Positions 7,490-14,238 of a stretch of DNA of 64,000 nucleotides are shown here, piece by piece. The position numbers and the translations under genes are program-made. The stretch's first letter is position 1; every line of letters starts with the position of its first letter. The DNA is from Sinorhizobium sp. RAC02 (GTDB lineage Bacteria > Pseudomonadota > Alphaproteobacteria > Rhizobiales > Rhizobiaceae), in contig NZ_CP016452.1 in NCBI RefSeq assembly GCF_001713395.1, forward strand, positions 744,001 through 808,000, in the 5' to 3' direction. The notes below the pieces were generated by a model. The model was not told the DNA's origin and did no database searches. It saw only the letters and a program-made list of their open reading frames with translations.

Positions 7490-8443
7490 ATGAAGATTTC
7501 TCGACGCCTGTTTTCCATGACCCTGGCCGCCTCTGTCGCGCTGCCTTTCCTCAAGCTCGGTCCGGCCGCGGCCGCCGATAAGGTGGTGCGCATCGGCTAC
7601 CAGAAGTACGGCACGCTGGTGCTGCTTAAGGGCAAGGGTCTCCTGGAGCCCAAGCTTGAGAAGATCGGCTACACCGTCACCTGGGCGGAGTTCCCCGGTG
7701 GCCCGCAGCTGCTGGAAGCGCTGAACATCGGCGCGGTCGATTTCGGCGCGACCGGCGAGACGCCGCCGATCTTCGCGCAGGCCGCAGGCGCTCCGCTCGT
7801 CTACATCGCACACGAACCGCCGGCGCCGCGCGGCGAGGCGATCCTCGTTCCGAAGGACAGCCCCATCAAGACCGTCGCCGAGCTCAAGGGCAAGACGGTC
7901 GCGCTGAACAAGGGCTCGAACGTTCACTTCCTACTGGTCAAGGCGCTGGAAGAGGCGGGCCTCCAATACAGCGACGTCAAGACCTCCTTCCTGCCGCCGG
8001 CCGACGCGCGCGCCGCCTTCGAGCAGGGTGCGGTCGATGCCTGGGTGATCTGGGATCCCTTCCAGGCCGCCGCGGAAGTGGCGATCGAGGCCCGTGAACT
8101 GCGCAACGGCGAAGGCATCGTTCCGAACCACCAGTTCTACCTTGGTGCAAAGCCCTTCGTGGACGCAAATCCGGACGTCATCAGCGTCCTGATCGAAGCC
8201 ATCGCAGAGGTGGACACATGGGCTAAGTCGAACACCGCCGCCGCTGCCGCGGAGCTCGCCCCGTCCGTCGGCATTCCGGAGGACGTGCTTGCCGTTGCGC
8301 TGGAGCGCCAATCCTACGGCATCAAGCCGCTCGATGAGAGCGTGGTCCAGCAGCAGCAGGTGATCGCGGATACGTTCTTCGATCTTGGCCTCATCCCCAA
8401 CAAGATCTCGATTGCGGATGTCGTGCACAAGGGCGGTGCCTGA
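7490..8443 (+). CDS. ssuA: Aliphatic sulfonate ABC transporter substrate-binding protein
   Basis: This 317-residue periplasmic binding protein resembles SsuA, which captures alkanesulfonates. Family stretches visible are RIGYQKYGTL, EFPGGPQLLEALNIG, TGETPPIFAQAAG and PADARAAFEQG with DAWVIWDP. Residues 1-27 form a signal peptide with SRR followed by a hydrophobic run and a cleavage region near AAAAD, so Tat export is possible. The ATG at 7490 has AGGGGAG upstream; an in-frame GTG at 7472 is less likely. The stop overlaps the permease ATG by one base. Confidence 0.9.
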   Translation: MKISRRLFSMTLAASVALPFLKLGPAAAADKVVRIGYQKYGTLVLLKGKGLLEPKLEKIGYTVTWAEFPGGPQLLEALNIGAVDFGATGETPPIFAQAAGAPLVYIAHEPPAPRGEAILVPKDSPIKTVAELKGKTVALNKGSNVHFLLVKALEEAGLQYSDVKTSFLPPADARAAFEQGAVDAWVIWDPFQAAAEVAIEARELRNGEGIVPNHQFYLGAKPFVDANPDVISVLIEAIAEVDTWAKSNTAAAAAELAPSVGIPEDVLAVALERQSYGIKPLDESVVQQQQVIADTFFDLGLIPNKISIADVVHKGGA

Positions 8444-9279
8444 TGGCTGACACGTCGGTGGCCGGTTTTGCTACCGGCGAAACTCGTAAACCGAATCTGA
8501 AGGGCCTGGGGAGCGCGCTTGCGCCCTGGGCTCTTCCCATCATCCTCCTGATCGTCTGGGAAATAGCGGCCCGCACCGGTCTTGTCACGGCCCGCCTGAT
8601 GCCGGCGCCGACGACGATCGCCGCCGCCTTCTGGCGGTCGCTGCTGGATGGATCGCTGATCTTTCACACGCTCTCGTCCACGCGGCGCGCCTTCATCGGC
8701 CTCGCCATCGGCGGCGGGCTCGGCTTTGTCGCGGGCGTCGTGAACGGCCTCTGGAAACCGGCCGAGACGCTGCTCGACAGCACGATCCAGATGGTGCGCA
8801 ACATCCCGCATCTGGCGCTGATCCCGCTCGTCATCCTCTGGTTCGGCATCGACGAGACGGCCAAGATGTTCTTGGTCTCGATCGGCGTCTTCTTCCCGAT
8901 TTACATCAACACCTTCTACGGCGTGCGCACGATCGACCCCCAGCTCGTCGAGATGGCCTCGGTCTACGGCCTCGACCGTCGGGCCCTGATCCAGCGCATC
9001 ATCCTGCCGGGCGCGCTTCCGTCCATTCTCATCGGCCTGCGCTATGCGCTCGGTTTCATGTGGCTGACGCTCATCGTCGCGGAGACGATCTCGGCCACTG
9101 ACGGCATCGGCTACATGACGATGAACGCCCGCGAGTTCCTGCAGACCGACATCGTGCTGCTCGGCATCATCGTCTATGCGCTCCTCGGCAAGCTTGCCGA
9201 CGTGGCGACCCGCGCGATCGAGAAGCGCGTCCTCGTCTGGCACCCCGCTTATCAAGTGAAGGAAGGGGTCGGGCAATGA
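8443..9279 (+). CDS. ssuC: Sulfonate ABC transporter permease
   Basis: This 278-residue inner-membrane protein is the permease of the ssu system. It has about six hydrophobic segments and the BPD_transp_1 coupling motif around EMASVYGLDRRALIQRIILP, typical of SsuC/TauC. It overlaps ssuA by one base and ssuB by four, so the three are one translational unit in the order A-C-B. Confidence 0.9.
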   Translation: MADTSVAGFATGETRKPNLKGLGSALAPWALPIILLIVWEIAARTGLVTARLMPAPTTIAAAFWRSLLDGSLIFHTLSSTRRAFIGLAIGGGLGFVAGVVNGLWKPAETLLDSTIQMVRNIPHLALIPLVILWFGIDETAKMFLVSIGVFFPIYINTFYGVRTIDPQLVEMASVYGLDRRALIQRIILPGALPSILIGLRYALGFMWLTLIVAETISATDGIGYMTMNAREFLQTDIVLLGIIVYALLGKLADVATRAIEKRVLVWHPAYQVKEGVGQ

Positions 9280-10019
9280 GCGTCGCCGAACTCCACACGC
9301 TGGAAGGCACGGGCGGCTTACCAATCTCGCTCTCGCGGGTCGAAAAGTCGTTCGGCAAGCTCAACGTGCTCGGCAATTTCAACATCGAGATTCCGGCCGG
9401 CCAGTTCCTCGCAGTGGTCGGGCGCTCGGGGGGCGGCAAGTCCACGTTGATGCGGCTGATCGCCGGTCTCGATACCGCCAGCAGCGGCCGCGTGGCGATC
9501 GAGGGACGCAAGGTCGAGCGGCTGCATCCGTCCGTGCGACTGCTTTTCCAGGAAGCACGGCTGGTGCCCTGGCAGCGGGTCATCGAGAATGTCGGCATCG
9601 CGCGCGGCCCGAACTGGCAGGAAACGGCCCGCCGGGCGCTGGCGGATGTCGGGCTCGAAGGCCGCGAGAACGATTGGCCGAGCGTGCTTTCCGGTGGCCA
9701 GCGGCAGCGCGTGGCGCTGGCCCGCGCGCTGGTCAGCGAGCCGCAGATCCTGCTGCTCGACGAGCCCTTTGGCGCGCTCGACGCGTTGACCCGCATCGAG
9801 ATGCACCGCCTGCTGGAGCGGATCTGGATCGGCCGCAGATTCACCACGGTGCTGATCACCCATGACGTTGCCGAGGCCGTGGCGCTCGCCGACCGGGTGG
9901 TCGTGCTCCGGCAGGGCGCCATCGCGCTCGATATCGACATCGACCTCGACCGCCCCCGGCAGGAGCTTGCCGATCCGCGGGCCGTCGATCTCCAGCGGCG
10001 GATACTCGAAGCCGTTTAG
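9276..10019 (+). CDS. ssuB: Sulfonate ABC transporter ATP-binding protein
   Basis: This 247-residue ATPase completes the ssu transporter. Walker A is GRSGGGKST, the signature LSGGQRQR, Walker B ILLLDEPFGALD, and the switch histidine is in LITHD, so it looks fully active. The Q-loop region LLFQEARLVPW is characteristic of the SsuB/TauB/NrtD group. No sulfonate monooxygenase (SsuD/SsuE) follows; the downstream genes are a DUF971 protein and a redox pair instead. Confidence 0.9.
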   Translation: MSVAELHTLEGTGGLPISLSRVEKSFGKLNVLGNFNIEIPAGQFLAVVGRSGGGKSTLMRLIAGLDTASSGRVAIEGRKVERLHPSVRLLFQEARLVPWQRVIENVGIARGPNWQETARRALADVGLEGRENDWPSVLSGGQRQRVALARALVSEPQILLLDEPFGALDALTRIEMHRLLERIWIGRRFTTVLITHDVAEAVALADRVVVLRQGAIALDIDIDLDRPRQELADPRAVDLQRRILEAV

Positions 10020-10186
10020 CGTCGCTGACGCCTTGCACATTACAATGCTGAATGATCCGGCGCCGGTTTCGTTTCGCCCTGGCTTCGCGCCGATGCGATC
10101 GGCCCACAATGCGGAGCGTCTTGGCAATTTATTGCGTGTGCCGGTTTGCGTGATCCCTAGGATGGGGCGAACCATCAGGAAACGCC

Positions 10187-10474
10187 ATGATAGCCCTCAG
10201 TCTCAAGGTCAACGCAGCCCGCAGCAGTCTCGCCGTCACCTGGGACGATGGCGTCGTGTCTCATTTGCCGGCGCCGGTGCTGCGGGCGCACAGCCGGGCC
10301 GCCATCCAGGTGCGCGCCGATCTTTACGGTCCCGCGGGCACGTTCGACGATGTTATGCTGACCGGCGCGGAGCCGATCGGCGCCTATGCAGTCCGGCTGG
10401 TTTTCTCCGATGGCCATGATCGTGGCATCTATCCCTGGAGCTATCTGCGCACCATCGCCGAAGCCCAACTTTGA
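10187..10474 (+). CDS. DUF971 (GBBH-like N-terminal) domain protein
   Basis: This 95-residue protein is a stand-alone DUF971 domain, the small fold also found at the N-terminus of gamma-butyrobetaine hydroxylase. Diagnostic residues are WDDG near residue 19 and FSDGHDRGIYPWSYL near the C-terminus. Stand-alone forms often sit beside iron-sulfur proteins, which fits the flavoprotein and ferredoxin downstream. Its biochemical role is not established. It is 167 bases after ssuB, so it could have its own promoter, and the flavoprotein ATG is eight bases after its stop. Confidence 0.85.
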   Translation: MIALSLKVNAARSSLAVTWDDGVVSHLPAPVLRAHSRAAIQVRADLYGPAGTFDDVMLTGAEPIGAYAVRLVFSDGHDRGIYPWSYLRTIAEAQL

Positions 10475-10482
10475 GGTCAGAA

Positions 10483-12219
10483 ATGGATACCTTTGTCGAC
10501 GGGCTTTCCGAGGTCACCTGCGACGTGCTGGTGATCGGCGGCGGAACCGCCGGGCCGATGGCCGCACTCAAGGCGAAGCAGAAGAACCCCGCCCTGAATG
10601 TCGTGCTGCTGGAAAAGGCGAATGTGAAGCGGTCGGGCGCGATCTCGATGGGCATGGACGGCCTGAACAACGCCGTCGTGCCGGGCTATGCGACGCCGGA
10701 GCAATATACCAAGGAGATCACTATCGCCAACGACGGCATTGTCGACCAGGCGGCGGTCTTCAAATATGCCTCGCGCTGTTATGACGTCATCCAGGAACTG
10801 GATCGTTTCGGCATCCGCTTCCAGAAGAATGCCAATGGCGACTACGACCTCAAGAAGGTCCATCACCTCGGCACCTACGTGCTGCCGATGCCGAACGGCG
10901 ATACCGTCAAGAAGGCGCTCTATCGCCAGCTGAAACGCGAACGCATCCTGATTTCGAACCGCTTCATGGCGACGCGCCTTCTCACCGCCGTGGACGGGCG
11001 CATCGCGGGTGCCGTCGCCGTCAACACGCGCACCGCCGAATTCCTCGTGCTGCGCGCCAAGACCGTAATCCTGTGCATGGGGGCGGCGGGCAGGCTGGGG
11101 CTGCCGCACTCCGGCTACCTGTTCGGCACCTATGAGAACCCCACCAATTCGGGCGACGGCTATGCGATGGCCTATCACGCGGGTGCGGCGCTCGCCAATC
11201 TGGAGTGCTACCAGATCAACCCGCTGATCAAGGACTATAACGGTCCGGCCTGCGCCTATGTCGCCGGCCCGTTCGGCGCCTACACCGCCAACAGCGAAGG
11301 CAAGCGCTTCATTGAAAGCGACTACTGGTCGGGCCAGATGATGCAGGAGTTCTACAACGAACTGCAATCGGGCAAGGGCCCGGTCTTCCTGAAGCTCAAT
11401 CACCTGCATCCCGATACGGTCGGCGAGATCGAAGGCATTCTGCACAAGGTGGAGCGCCCGTCGCGCGGACGGTTCCATGAGGCGCGCGGTACCGATTACC
11501 GCCAGACGATGATCGAGATGCACATTTCCGAAATCGGCTTCTGCTCCGGCCACAGTGCCTCGGGCGTCTTTGTCGACGATTATGCGCGGACGACCGTGCC
11601 GGGCCTCTATGCTGCCGGCGACATGGCCAGCGTGCCGCACAACTACATGCTCGGCGCCTTCACCAACGGTGCCGTCGCTGGCGAGCACGCGGCCGAGGTG
11701 GCGCAGGAGGTGGACCTGCCGGCCTTCGACGCGGATTTCGTGCGGCTGGAGCGCGAGCGGGTTCTCGCCCCGACGCGGCGCGAGGACGGCATTCCGCCGA
11801 ACCAGCTCGAATACAAGGCCCGCCGCCTCGTCAACGACTACCTCCAGCCGCCCAAGGTGACCGCGCGGATGCGGCTCGGCCAGGCGCGGCTTGCCGAGGT
11901 GAGGGACGATCTCGAAACGGCGATGGTCGCGCGCAATGCGCACGAACTGATGCGTGCGCTCGAAGTGTCGTCCATCATCGACTGTGCCGACATGGCGGCC
12001 CATGCCTCCCTCTACCGGACGGAAAGCCGCTGGGGTCTCTACCACAATCGCGTCGACCATCCCGAAAAGGACGACGAGAACTGGTTCTGTCACACGCTTC
12101 TGCGCAAGCGTGACGGCCGGATGACCTCCGAGAAGCGCGCCATCCAGCCCTACATCGTGCCGATCGAGACCGAAGAGCGCCATGCCTACGATCGCTTGCG
12201 CGTCTCCACTCAAGCCTGA
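10483..12219 (+). CDS. AprA-like FAD-dependent oxidoreductase (fumarate reductase/succinate dehydrogenase flavoprotein family)
   Basis: This 578-residue flavoprotein belongs to the fumarate reductase/succinate dehydrogenase/APS reductase alpha superfamily. The FAD-binding dinucleotide motif (VIGGGTAGPMAALKA) is at residues 16-30, followed by KRSGAISMGMDGLN, which resembles the RSGA-x-AMG segment of AprA, and by GLYAAGDMAS near residue 370. The following gene encodes a ferredoxin in the arrangement of AprB with AprA, but no ATP sulfurylase or dissimilatory sulfite reductase is present. The likely role is a two-electron oxidoreduction linked to the sulfonate transporter; the substrate is unknown. 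The start has GAGG six bases upstream. Confidence 0.85.
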   Translation: MDTFVDGLSEVTCDVLVIGGGTAGPMAALKAKQKNPALNVVLLEKANVKRSGAISMGMDGLNNAVVPGYATPEQYTKEITIANDGIVDQAAVFKYASRCYDVIQELDRFGIRFQKNANGDYDLKKVHHLGTYVLPMPNGDTVKKALYRQLKRERILISNRFMATRLLTAVDGRIAGAVAVNTRTAEFLVLRAKTVILCMGAAGRLGLPHSGYLFGTYENPTNSGDGYAMAYHAGAALANLECYQINPLIKDYNGPACAYVAGPFGAYTANSEGKRFIESDYWSGQMMQEFYNELQSGKGPVFLKLNHLHPDTVGEIEGILHKVERPSRGRFHEARGTDYRQTMIEMHISEIGFCSGHSASGVFVDDYARTTVPGLYAAGDMASVPHNYMLGAFTNGAVAGEHAAEVAQEVDLPAFDADFVRLERERVLAPTRREDGIPPNQLEYKARRLVNDYLQPPKVTARMRLGQARLAEVRDDLETAMVARNAHELMRALEVSSIIDCADMAAHASLYRTESRWGLYHNRVDHPEKDDENWFCHTLLRKRDGRMTSEKRAIQPYIVPIETEERHAYDRLRVSTQA

Positions 12220-12230
12220 CGAGGAAAACC

Positions 12231-12464
12231 ATGCCACTTGCCTTTTCCCCCACCGCCGTTCCCGTCGTCGTGGACGATGCGAAATGCATCGCCGACAAGG
12301 GATGCACCGTCTGCGTCGACGTCTGTCCGCTCGACGTGCTGCGCATCAGCGATCTTACCGGCAAGGCCTATATGAAGTTCGACGAGTGCTGGTACTGCAT
12401 GCCCTGCGAGACCGACTGCCCGACCGGCGCGGTGAGCGTCAACATCCCCTATCTGTTGCGCTGA
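12231..12464 (+). CDS. AprB-like 2[4Fe-4S] ferredoxin
   Basis: This 77-residue iron-sulfur protein has two cysteine clusters: C-x5-C-x2-C-x3-CP around residues 19-31, and CWYCMPCETDCP near residue 55. That predicts two [4Fe-4S] clusters, and the second motif with its Trp resembles AprB (CWxCxxC). It lacks AprB's long C-terminal tail. It starts 11 bases after the flavoprotein stop and is followed after one base by the HEAT gene, so it is the probable electron-transfer partner of the flavoprotein. Confidence 0.88.
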   Translation: MPLAFSPTAVPVVVDDAKCIADKGCTVCVDVCPLDVLRISDLTGKAYMKFDECWYCMPCETDCPTGAVSVNIPYLLR

Positions 12465-12465
12465 C

Positions 12466-13422
12466 ATGAGTGCCTTCGATCCATTCGAGGATTTCGGCGA
12501 CACCGAGGAGATCGCGCCGCGCCTTGGCGATGCCGACGCGGCCGTCAGGCGCCTTGCCGTCATCGACCTTGCCGAAACCGCAAGCCCGGAGGTGCTGCCG
12601 CATCTTCTCGCCGCTGTCTCCGACGGGGATGCGAGCGTGCGCCTGCAAGTGGCCATCGTGCTCGCCGATTTCGACACGGTCGAGGCGGCGGCCGGGCTTT
12701 GCACGCTGGTGGCGGATGCGGACGCGACGGTGGCCCAGGCTGCGGCCGACAGCCTCGCGGAACTGAAGGACGCCGCGGCCGCGGCCGCCATTCTGCCGTT
12801 GGTTGCCCATGACAGCGCTTTCGTCCGGGCGGCCGGTTTTCGCGGGTTGCGCGCCTTGCGCGCGCCTGTGGCACTCGGCGCTGCGCTCGCCGCCATGCGC
12901 GACGAGAACGCCGACGTGCGGGCGGAAGCGCTCGGCGTGGTCGCCTATCTCAAGCTGGAGGAAACGCTGCCGTCGCTCATCGCTGCGACCCGTGATGCGG
13001 GCGCCGCCGTCCGCGCCGTCGCGGTCAATGCCTTGTCGTTCACGAGCCAGCTTGCAGCGGCTTCCGCGGTCGTCGCGGCCTTGCAGGATGCGAGCTGGCA
13101 GGTGAGGGCGGCGGCGGCGGAATCGCTTGGTCGGATCGGCCATGTTTCGGCCGTTGACGGCCTGGTCGCCGGGCTCGCCGACGACTTTTGGCAGGTTCGG
13201 CAGAAATGCCTGAACGCGCTCGGAAAGCTCAAGGCGCAGCCGGCGGCGCGGCAGATTGCGGCCCTGCTGGCGAGCGACATGCCGTCGCTTCGCAAGGAGG
13301 CGGCAGCCGCTCTTGGCGAAATCGCAGATCCCGCCACGCGGGACGCGCTGATGGGCCACATATCCGATGCCGATCCCGACGTGCGCAAGACCGTGCGCTG
13401 GGCTTTGACGCGGATCGGCTAG
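12466..13422 (+). CDS. HEAT-repeat protein (PBS lyase HEAT-like repeats)
   Basis: This 318-residue protein consists of about ten helical repeats of roughly 31 residues, each with a D-x-x-VR or A-x-VR pattern followed by an alanine-rich helix and L-x-x. This is the HEAT/PBS-lyase type used as a protein-binding scaffold or in cofactor attachment. Its ATG lies one base after the ferredoxin stop, so it is made with the flavoprotein-ferredoxin pair and may help assemble it or insert cofactors. No catalytic residues can be assigned. Confidence 0.88.
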   Translation: MSAFDPFEDFGDTEEIAPRLGDADAAVRRLAVIDLAETASPEVLPHLLAAVSDGDASVRLQVAIVLADFDTVEAAAGLCTLVADADATVAQAAADSLAELKDAAAAAAILPLVAHDSAFVRAAGFRGLRALRAPVALGAALAAMRDENADVRAEALGVVAYLKLEETLPSLIAATRDAGAAVRAVAVNALSFTSQLAAASAVVAALQDASWQVRAAAAESLGRIGHVSAVDGLVAGLADDFWQVRQKCLNALGKLKAQPAARQIAALLASDMPSLRKEAAAALGEIADPATRDALMGHISDADPDVRKTVRWALTRIG

Positions 13423-13431
13423 AAGGCGGCA

Positions 13432-14238
13432 TCAGCTGCCGGTCTTCGACACCATGTCCAGCAGCGCCTGCGGGCGCTCGATGCGGATGTGGCGCGGGGT
13501 CACGGTCAAAAGGCCGTCCTTATGGAATCGCTTCATCATCATGGTCACCCATTGGCGCGTCGAGCCGACCATGGCCGCGATCTGGTCATGGGTGACCTTG
13601 GCGTTGATGATGATCGCCCGGCCGTCGAGCACGCCATGCAAGTCGCCGAGGTTGATCAGGAACTGCGCCAGGCGTTCGATGACGGAGCGGGTGCCCAGCA
13701 TTTGCGCCATCGCCGAATAACATCGCCCCTTGGCGGCCAGCCCTTGCAGAAGACAGAGGGCGAAGGTCGGCATCTCGACGAGCAGGGTCTTCAGCGCCGG
13801 GGCGGGAAGGAACAGAATGCGGCAGCCGCTCAACGCCTCCGCCGACCAGATATGCGCCCCACCGCCGGTCATTTCCGGACCGCCGATGAAGTGCCCCGTC
13901 GTCCAGTAGGCCAGCGTGATCTCTCGGCCGGACGGCGCGGTGTAGAACACCCGCACTTGGCCGGCATCTATGATGAAGATTCCGCCATGCGTGTCGCCCT
14001 GGGTGAAGATCGCCTTGCCAGGCAGGAAGGAGAGCTTGCGGCCGTGCGCCCTCAGCCTTTCCCGCTCCTCGGGCGTGAGAGCGTCGAGGAAGTGCGCCCC
14101 TTCATCCAGTCCTTCGACGCTCTCGCTGAGAAAAAGCGCACGGTCGCCGGGAAGGACGACCTGTCGGGGAAGGTCGGGGGCCGGCTCGTGATTCTGGCGG
14201 GATGTTTCGCGGGCGGCCGCGCGGACGTCGAGGCTCAT
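13432..14238 (-). CDS. Crp/Fnr family transcriptional regulator
   Basis: This 268-residue regulator has a cyclic-nucleotide-binding-like domain (about residues 45-165, with GKAIFTQGD and GQVRVFY) and a C-terminal winged helix (about 180-262, recognition region MVGSTRQWVTMMMKRF). It lacks the N-terminal cysteines of Fnr. The start at 14238 has AAGGAG upstream; an extension to 14289 is less likely. It faces the ssu-flavoprotein cluster tail to tail and is the obvious candidate regulator of it. Confidence 0.9.
   Translation of the reverse strand: MSLDVRAAARETSRQNHEPAPDLPRQVVLPGDRALFLSESVEGLDEGAHFLDALTPEERERLRAHGRKLSFLPGKAIFTQGDTHGGIFIIDAGQVRVFYTAPSGREITLAYWTTGHFIGGPEMTGGGAHIWSAEALSGCRILFLPAPALKTLLVEMPTFALCLLQGLAAKGRCYSAMAQMLGTRSVIERLAQFLINLGDLHGVLDGRAIIINAKVTHDQIAAMVGSTRQWVTMMMKRFHKDGLLTVTPRHIRIERPQALLDMVSKTGS

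Follow-up and report, generated by a model that had tools for sequence, protein, structure and literature searches.

A 64,000-nucleotide stretch of Sinorhizobium sp. RAC02 (contig NZ_CP016452.1, positions 744,001 to 808,000; hereafter the window, in whose numbering all positions are given) carries eight genes, at 7490..14238, in which a sulfonate-type ATP-binding cassette (ABC) transporter is followed by a flavoprotein module. Profile matches agree with the place and order that a first-pass annotation, made from the sequence alone, had assigned to these genes. On the plus strand, the aliphatic sulfonate binding protein SsuA (7490..8443; NF008588, 314.9 bits, cut-off 299) precedes an SsuC-like permease (8443..9279) and an SsuB-like ATPase (9276..10019). 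The latter two have SsuC and SsuB as their best models, at 339.6 and 304 bits, and do not reach the cut-offs of 347 and 395, so that SsuA alone attains its curated score. Next on this strand come a protein with a DUF971/GBBH-like N-terminal domain (10187..10474; PF06155, 71.3 bits, cut-off 22.8), an AprA-like flavin adenine dinucleotide (FAD) flavoprotein (10483..12219; NF006131/PRK08275, 1073.6 bits, cut-off 587), a 2[4Fe-4S] ferredoxin of 77 amino acids (aa) with two four-Cys motifs, the second of which, CWYCMPC, is AprB-like (12231..12466), and a HEAT-repeat protein (12466..13422; PF13646, 140 bits) that matches the C-terminal part of PRK13800. A Crp/Fnr family regulator (13432..14238; PF00027 and PF13545) lies on the minus strand, convergent with the module. 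A gap of 168 base pairs (bp) separates ssuB from the DUF971 gene; the other gaps or overlaps among the plus-strand genes are at most 11 bp. The flavoprotein gene is single-copy in the RAC02 genome. The locus resembles the SsuABC-SsuD/SsuE system in its SsuA, which exceeds the curated cut-off, and differs in that ssuACB is followed by the flavoprotein module, with no SsuD or SsuE gene beside it; the SsuD of RAC02 is encoded elsewhere on the same contig (566 bits, cut-off 518).

The module is real and widespread. Its flavoprotein-ferredoxin-HEAT core is found in Pseudomonadota, Cyanobacteria and Actinobacteria, and the neighbourhood, on whose conservation elsewhere the first-pass annotation had made its reading depend, does recur. 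Among the best 80 of 595 genome-contig relatives (the 80 loci), HEAT is encoded at 80, the ferredoxin at 79, and DUF971 and a dedicated binding protein, described below, at 72 each; Crp (52/80), YeiH (25/80) and GntR (23/80) genes are less frequent, and an SsuA-type binding protein is present at two. In a second comparison, 21 flavoprotein loci were set against 40 arbitrary windows of the same genomes, at positions chosen by us. HEAT and DUF971 are each present at 21/21 loci, the dedicated binding protein at 18/21, Crp at 11/21, YeiH at 5/21 (p 0.0034) and SsuA at 1/21, namely RAC02 itself, as against 0/40 control windows in every case. The DUF971 protein of RAC02 has no CxxC motif, whereas 58/76 relatives keep one. 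Cyanobacterial plasmids carry Mrp/NBP35 instead of DUF971, and TauE/SafE and YeiH-type exporter genes accompany the module in three of the four examined; the Nostoc plasmid has Mrp and neither exporter. A gene annotated as a sulfite/sulfate exporter is found on 4 of 15 annotated plasmid stretches with the module. Searches of an open-licence library of papers found no description of the module. The genes Bphy_7232-37 of Paraburkholderia phymatum, from PMC8305402, were considered as a possible earlier account of it; they are not among the genes on the part of pBPHY02 examined.

The usual partner of the module is an ABC transporter with a binding protein of ~470 aa, SsuA/TauA-like and ~25% identical to the SsuA of RAC02. 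The best NCBIfam model of this dedicated binding protein is SsuA_fam, with scores under the cut-off in all five proteins tested; among proteins of solved structure, TauA and SsuA match it best. Of the 398 genomes in a phylum sample, 21 have the flavoprotein; the dedicated binding protein is present in 19 of these and in 0/377 of the others (Fisher p 1.6e-30), RAC02 and genome G324 being the two exceptions. Eight of the 80 loci have no local dedicated binding protein, and in seven of these cases a copy is encoded elsewhere in the genome (the exception is L076). In one genome (G028, locus L168), a distance of 2.9 Mb lies between the flavoprotein and the dedicated transporter, which together with a Crp gene stands beside a separate ssu-type cluster; chromosomal linkage therefore does not explain the co-occurrence. 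Both the module itself and its link with the transporter are well supported. Pfam NosL was matched in the C-terminal part of two of the six dedicated binding proteins tested (L013:5602-7056 and L104:2833-4344), with no match in those of L105, L109, L033 and L108; a nitrous-oxide or copper link suggested by this NosL-like tail was considered and dropped.

The conserved co-occurrence with ssuACB itself, for which the first-pass annotation had proposed a survey, is not supported: since SsuA accompanies the module at 1/21 and 2/80 loci only, ssuACB was rejected as its conserved partner. The order ssuACB-DUF971-flavoprotein-ferredoxin-HEAT-Crp is also present on a plasmid of Ensifer adhaerens, whose ssu proteins are 85-90% identical to those of RAC02 (SsuA 85%); a search of that plasmid only did not find the dedicated binding protein. 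In Nostoc (L103), only 27 bp lie between the end of a true SsuA (308.6 bits, cut-off 299) and the flavoprotein, and the dedicated binding protein was likewise not found on the plasmid. A true SsuA, over the cut-off, is also encoded beside the module in Hyphomicrobium (L034) and in a member of the Burkholderiales (L079). In Shinella, orthologous ssuACB genes (84% DNA identity) lie beside those for a 2-oxoglutarate (2OG) oxygenase, cysE and ssuD, with a gene for a flavin mononucleotide (FMN) reductase nearby. The strongest case for a sulfonate substrate, in our opinion, is that Shinella has oxygen-dependent enzymes where RAC02 has the module. The sulfonate link drawn by the first-pass annotation holds in kind, the obligate transporter partner being SsuA/TauA-like; in almost all relatives that partner is another transporter than ssuACB.

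In the phylogeny that the first-pass annotation had proposed as a check, the flavoprotein groups with AprA and with the reductase of 3′-phosphoadenosine 5′-phosphosulfate (PAPS), and not with FrdA, SdhA or NadB; its family forms a clade of its own beside AprA and the PAPS reductase. The best solved relative is the alpha subunit of PAPS reductase (8a8o_A, 201 bits), with AprA at 127 bits. The score against the AprA model TIGR02061 is 151.1 bits, under the cut-off of 641.75, and the Pfam scan of the flavoprotein matched PF02910 and not PF12139 (APS-reductase_C). It should be noted that a search for PF12139 gave no match in the RAC02 genome, but likewise none in 14/14 control genomes.

Residues were surveyed in 116 distinct family members including RAC02 (17 clusters at 80% identity; lowest identity 56%) and were compared with those of AprA and FrdA in 17 members by three MAFFT modes, which are in agreement. 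Arg265, Arg317 and His398 belong to the adenylylsulfate (APS) site of AprA, and their places, like that of Trp234, are consistent with the AprA sequence numbering. Both arginines are replaced in every member: Leu248 (codon 11224..11226; all codons are on the plus strand) stands at the site of Arg265 and Met286 (11338..11340) at that of Arg317, in 17/17 and 116/116 sequences each. Trp234 corresponds to Tyr217. Lys250 (11230..11232), His357 (11551..11553) and Asn62 are equivalent to AprA Lys267, His398 and Asn74, and are kept, the first two in 116/116 members. Four cysteines are also invariant (116/116): Cys242 (11206..11208; His or Asn in AprA, Met in PAPS reductase), Cys257 (11251..11253; Gly in both), Cys354 (11542..11544; Met or Leu in AprA, Val in PAPS reductase) and Cys501. 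A cysteine is found at these positions in 0/4 AprA and 0/2 PAPS reductase sequences compared; NadB has one at the position of Cys354. As for the fumarate reductases, the catalytic residues of FrdA are His232, Thr244, Glu245, Arg287, His355 and Arg390, and none of the six is present in any of the 17 members. The site at which a His binds FAD covalently in SdhA and FrdA reads RSH in those proteins and RSG in 9/9 aligned family rows. The likeness to FrdA/SdhA lies in the superfamily fold, and there are no membrane subunits. An ordinary fumarate reductase is rejected on the residues and the tree placement together; judged by its sequence, the flavoprotein is no fumarate reductase. Finally, PMC10322725 names the PAPS-loop residues Lys120-Arg121-Ser122, proposed to bind PAPS, and AprA Gln145; here all of these are replaced, the loop reading Val126, His127, His128 (Arg instead in 6/116). 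Part of the APS reductase machinery is thus kept and both arginines are gone, which we read as a changed substrate, and the flavoprotein is probably neither an APS nor a PAPS reductase.

The second ferredoxin motif aligns with CWECYSC of Desulfovibrio AprB (in an alignment made with the Bradyrhizobium orthologue), and its Trp is present in 88/88 relatives (85 by the strict pattern, three read by eye); Trp42 of the PAPS reductase is proposed in PMC10322725 to act in electron transfer. The RAC02 protein has the two four-Cys motifs and the Trp of an AprB, lacks the ~150-aa length with a C-terminal tail, and scores 32.5 bits against TIGR02060 (AprB; cut-off 135.65). Ferredoxin-NADP reductase (Fpr) is encoded at 43/80 and FdxA at 24/80 loci (9/21 and 4/21, respectively, vs 0/40 control windows), and these neighbours, together with the ferredoxin Trp, fit a flow of electrons towards the flavin. 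In Tsukamurella, HEAT is fused to the flavoprotein (893 aa), as in the 898-position NCBI model PRK13800, and we therefore argue that the two proteins work together. In Thiobacillus, Hydrogenophilales and Acidithiobacillus, the gene that comes after the module specifies a protein of ~1150-1196 aa (L054:16754-20344, L055:16806-20345, L106:10574-14035). This protein, in which a Pyr_redox_2 domain was matched for Acidithiobacillus, could be another electron donor.

Taken as a pair, the flavoprotein and ferredoxin resemble AprBA (2fja, 1jnr, 3gyx) in fold, in the equivalents of His398, Lys267 and Asn74, and in the Trp of the second ferredoxin motif. They differ in the changes of Arg265 to Leu, Arg317 to Met and Trp234 to Tyr, in the ferredoxin length (77 vs 150-166 aa), and in falling under the TIGR02061 cut-off. 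The description of an AprBA-like pair in the first-pass annotation is sound for the fold and wrong if APS chemistry was meant; the adenylylsulfate chemistry it had also entertained is not supported, given the replacement of the two arginines and of the nucleotide-loop residues in every member. Overall, its observation is confirmed and its interpretation partly supported, and neither outcome that it had named as a refutation was seen. From the PAPS reductase of Methanothermococcus thermolithotrophicus (8a8o) the RAC02 protein differs in the replaced PAPS loop and AprA-type arginines, in its separate clade, and in having a transporter, HEAT and DUF971 as neighbours where cysC and cysD might be expected. 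The latter two genes do occur on an Ilyobacter plasmid (L130:5396-10727), together with those for an alpha subunit (8a8o_A, 861 bits), a ferredoxin and a GTP-binding protein; this set is a probable assimilatory AprBA-type PAPS reductase outside the archaea.

Tentatively, and with reserve, we regard the module as a unit that couples import to redox chemistry on a small organic anion, a sulfonate being the most likely candidate. The substrate would enter through an ABC importer whose binding protein is SsuA/TauA-like. The co-occurrence evidence for this step is strong, and import is taken as the direction because the transporter has a binding protein; ssuACB probably took over the importer's role in RAC02 and on the E. 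adhaerens plasmid. On grounds of homology, the 77-aa ferredoxin would join the flavoprotein in an AprBA-like electron-transfer pair. Judging from the neighbouring genes, electrons would pass from NADPH (reduced nicotinamide adenine dinucleotide phosphate) through ferredoxin-NADP reductase and FdxA to the ferredoxin and then to FAD. Leu248, Met286 and the invariant cysteines would give the pocket a new shape, and in it reduced flavin or a cysteine might attack the substrate, or the flavin might reduce it, whereupon the C-S bond would be cleaved and sulfite released for assimilation. YeiH or TauE/SafE exporters, where present, would remove excess sulfite, DUF971 or Mrp would support Fe-S assembly, HEAT would serve the flavoprotein as a scaffold or chaperone, and the Crp, GntR and LysR proteins would control expression. 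A sulfonate substrate is moderately supported, and reductive desulfonation is only inferred. That the family represents a new class, namely an oxygen-independent reductive desulfonase built on an AprBA scaffold, with active-site cysteines in place of the APS arginines, an SsuA-like importer of its own and electrons supplied by ferredoxin/NADPH, a class found across Pseudomonadota, Cyanobacteria and Actinobacteria and in many cases on plasmids, is a doubtful proposition at present.

Several observations weigh against a sulfonate-cleaving unit. Adjacency of ssuACB and the module is rare, and Hyphomicrobium and the Burkholderiales member, in which a true SsuA lies beside the module, carry the dedicated binding protein as well. 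RAC02 keeps SsuD elsewhere, so ssuACB could serve SsuD. The dedicated binding protein is under every curated SsuA/TauA cut-off, and its ligand may therefore differ. Other organosulfur genes show no clear enrichment around the flavoprotein (TauD 2/21 vs 0/40, p 0.11; luciferase-like monooxygenase (LLM) and sulfate binding protein each 0/21 vs 0/40; TauE 0/21 vs 1/40 control windows). The loss of the equivalents of Arg265 and Arg317 could mean a substrate without any S-oxyanion. Moreover, reductive removal of a sulfonate from unactivated carbon is chemically hard, and activated sulfonates are a real alternative.

Substrates of S-oxyanion chemistry with a better leaving group are a real alternative as well. 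Sulfate esters, S-sulfo (thiosulfonate) compounds or sulfamates, with leaving groups chemically easier than a carbanion, might have their S-O, S-S or S-N bond cleaved by attack of flavin N5, as AprA acts on APS. The closest solved structure is a PAPS reductase and the equivalents of His398 and Lys267 are kept, in accordance with such chemistry; the Leu and Met in place of Arg265 and Arg317 in 116/116 members speak against it, as does the transporter, which is like SsuA/TauA rather than a sulfate-ester system, and we consider this explanation unlikely. A divergent APS or PAPS reductase supplying sulfite for assimilation is far less probable still. Its nearest match in sequence and fold is indeed the assimilatory AprBA-type enzyme of M. 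thermolithotrophicus, but the PAPS loop and AprA Gln145 are replaced by Val-His-His/Arg, and cysC and cysD are not beside the flavoprotein, unlike in Ilyobacter. In addition, a tandem pair of genes of the PAPS_reduct family, taken to be cysH and cysD, is present in RAC02, and a sulfonate-type importer would make no sense for such an enzyme.

The module might also leave the C-S bond uncut. Within the fumarate reductase superfamily, it would then be a reductase of C=C bonds or a dehydrogenase, and its substrate a sulfonated acid or some other organic acid. The family's place with AprA and the PAPS reductase in the tree, and the 0/6 fumarate reductase residues in any of the 17 members, make this somewhat less likely than the S-oxyanion alternatives. 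We give a similarly low probability to a substrate that is not organosulfur at all, the transporter taking another anion, e.g., a metal-bound or nitrogenous one. The ligands of NMT1-type binding proteins are varied, the marine loci carry genes for SCO1, PCu(A)C and a CC membrane protein, and the permease and ATPase of locus L013 score best against Sao models; a review (PMC13188914) places Sao among transporter selenoproteins, for most of which a part in resistance to metals or metalloids is suggested. Sulfite/sulfate exporter genes and SsuA-type partners, on the other hand, indicate sulfur.

Two lineage-specific additions to the neighbourhood should be recorded here. The marine loci (L032, L033, L036, L037, L039-L042 and L066) encode an extra membrane protein of ~220 aa with an invariant CC in a transmembrane stretch, present at 9/80 loci, along with SCO1-like (9/80) and PCu(A)C (8/80) copper chaperone genes; the L040 copy of this membrane protein has no Pfam or NCBIfam match. 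Cyanobacterial loci encode a LysR regulator of ~670 aa (L104:6388-8424; L142 and L143 by annotation). The regulator of L104 resembles NMT1-type binding proteins in its C-terminal part and possibly senses the same ligand.

The name that NCBI gives to NF006131/PRK08275 is fumarate reductase/succinate dehydrogenase flavoprotein, a label against which the residue and tree results argue. A search gives at least 6610 matches among the 8000 candidates listed, possibly including other subfamilies, and thousands of family proteins bear this label. Known scavenging of sulfur from alkanesulfonates, by SsuD and TauD, needs oxygen. If the module does act as a reductive sulfonate-using unit, oxygen-independent use of sulfonates as a sulfur source would become testable with named genes.

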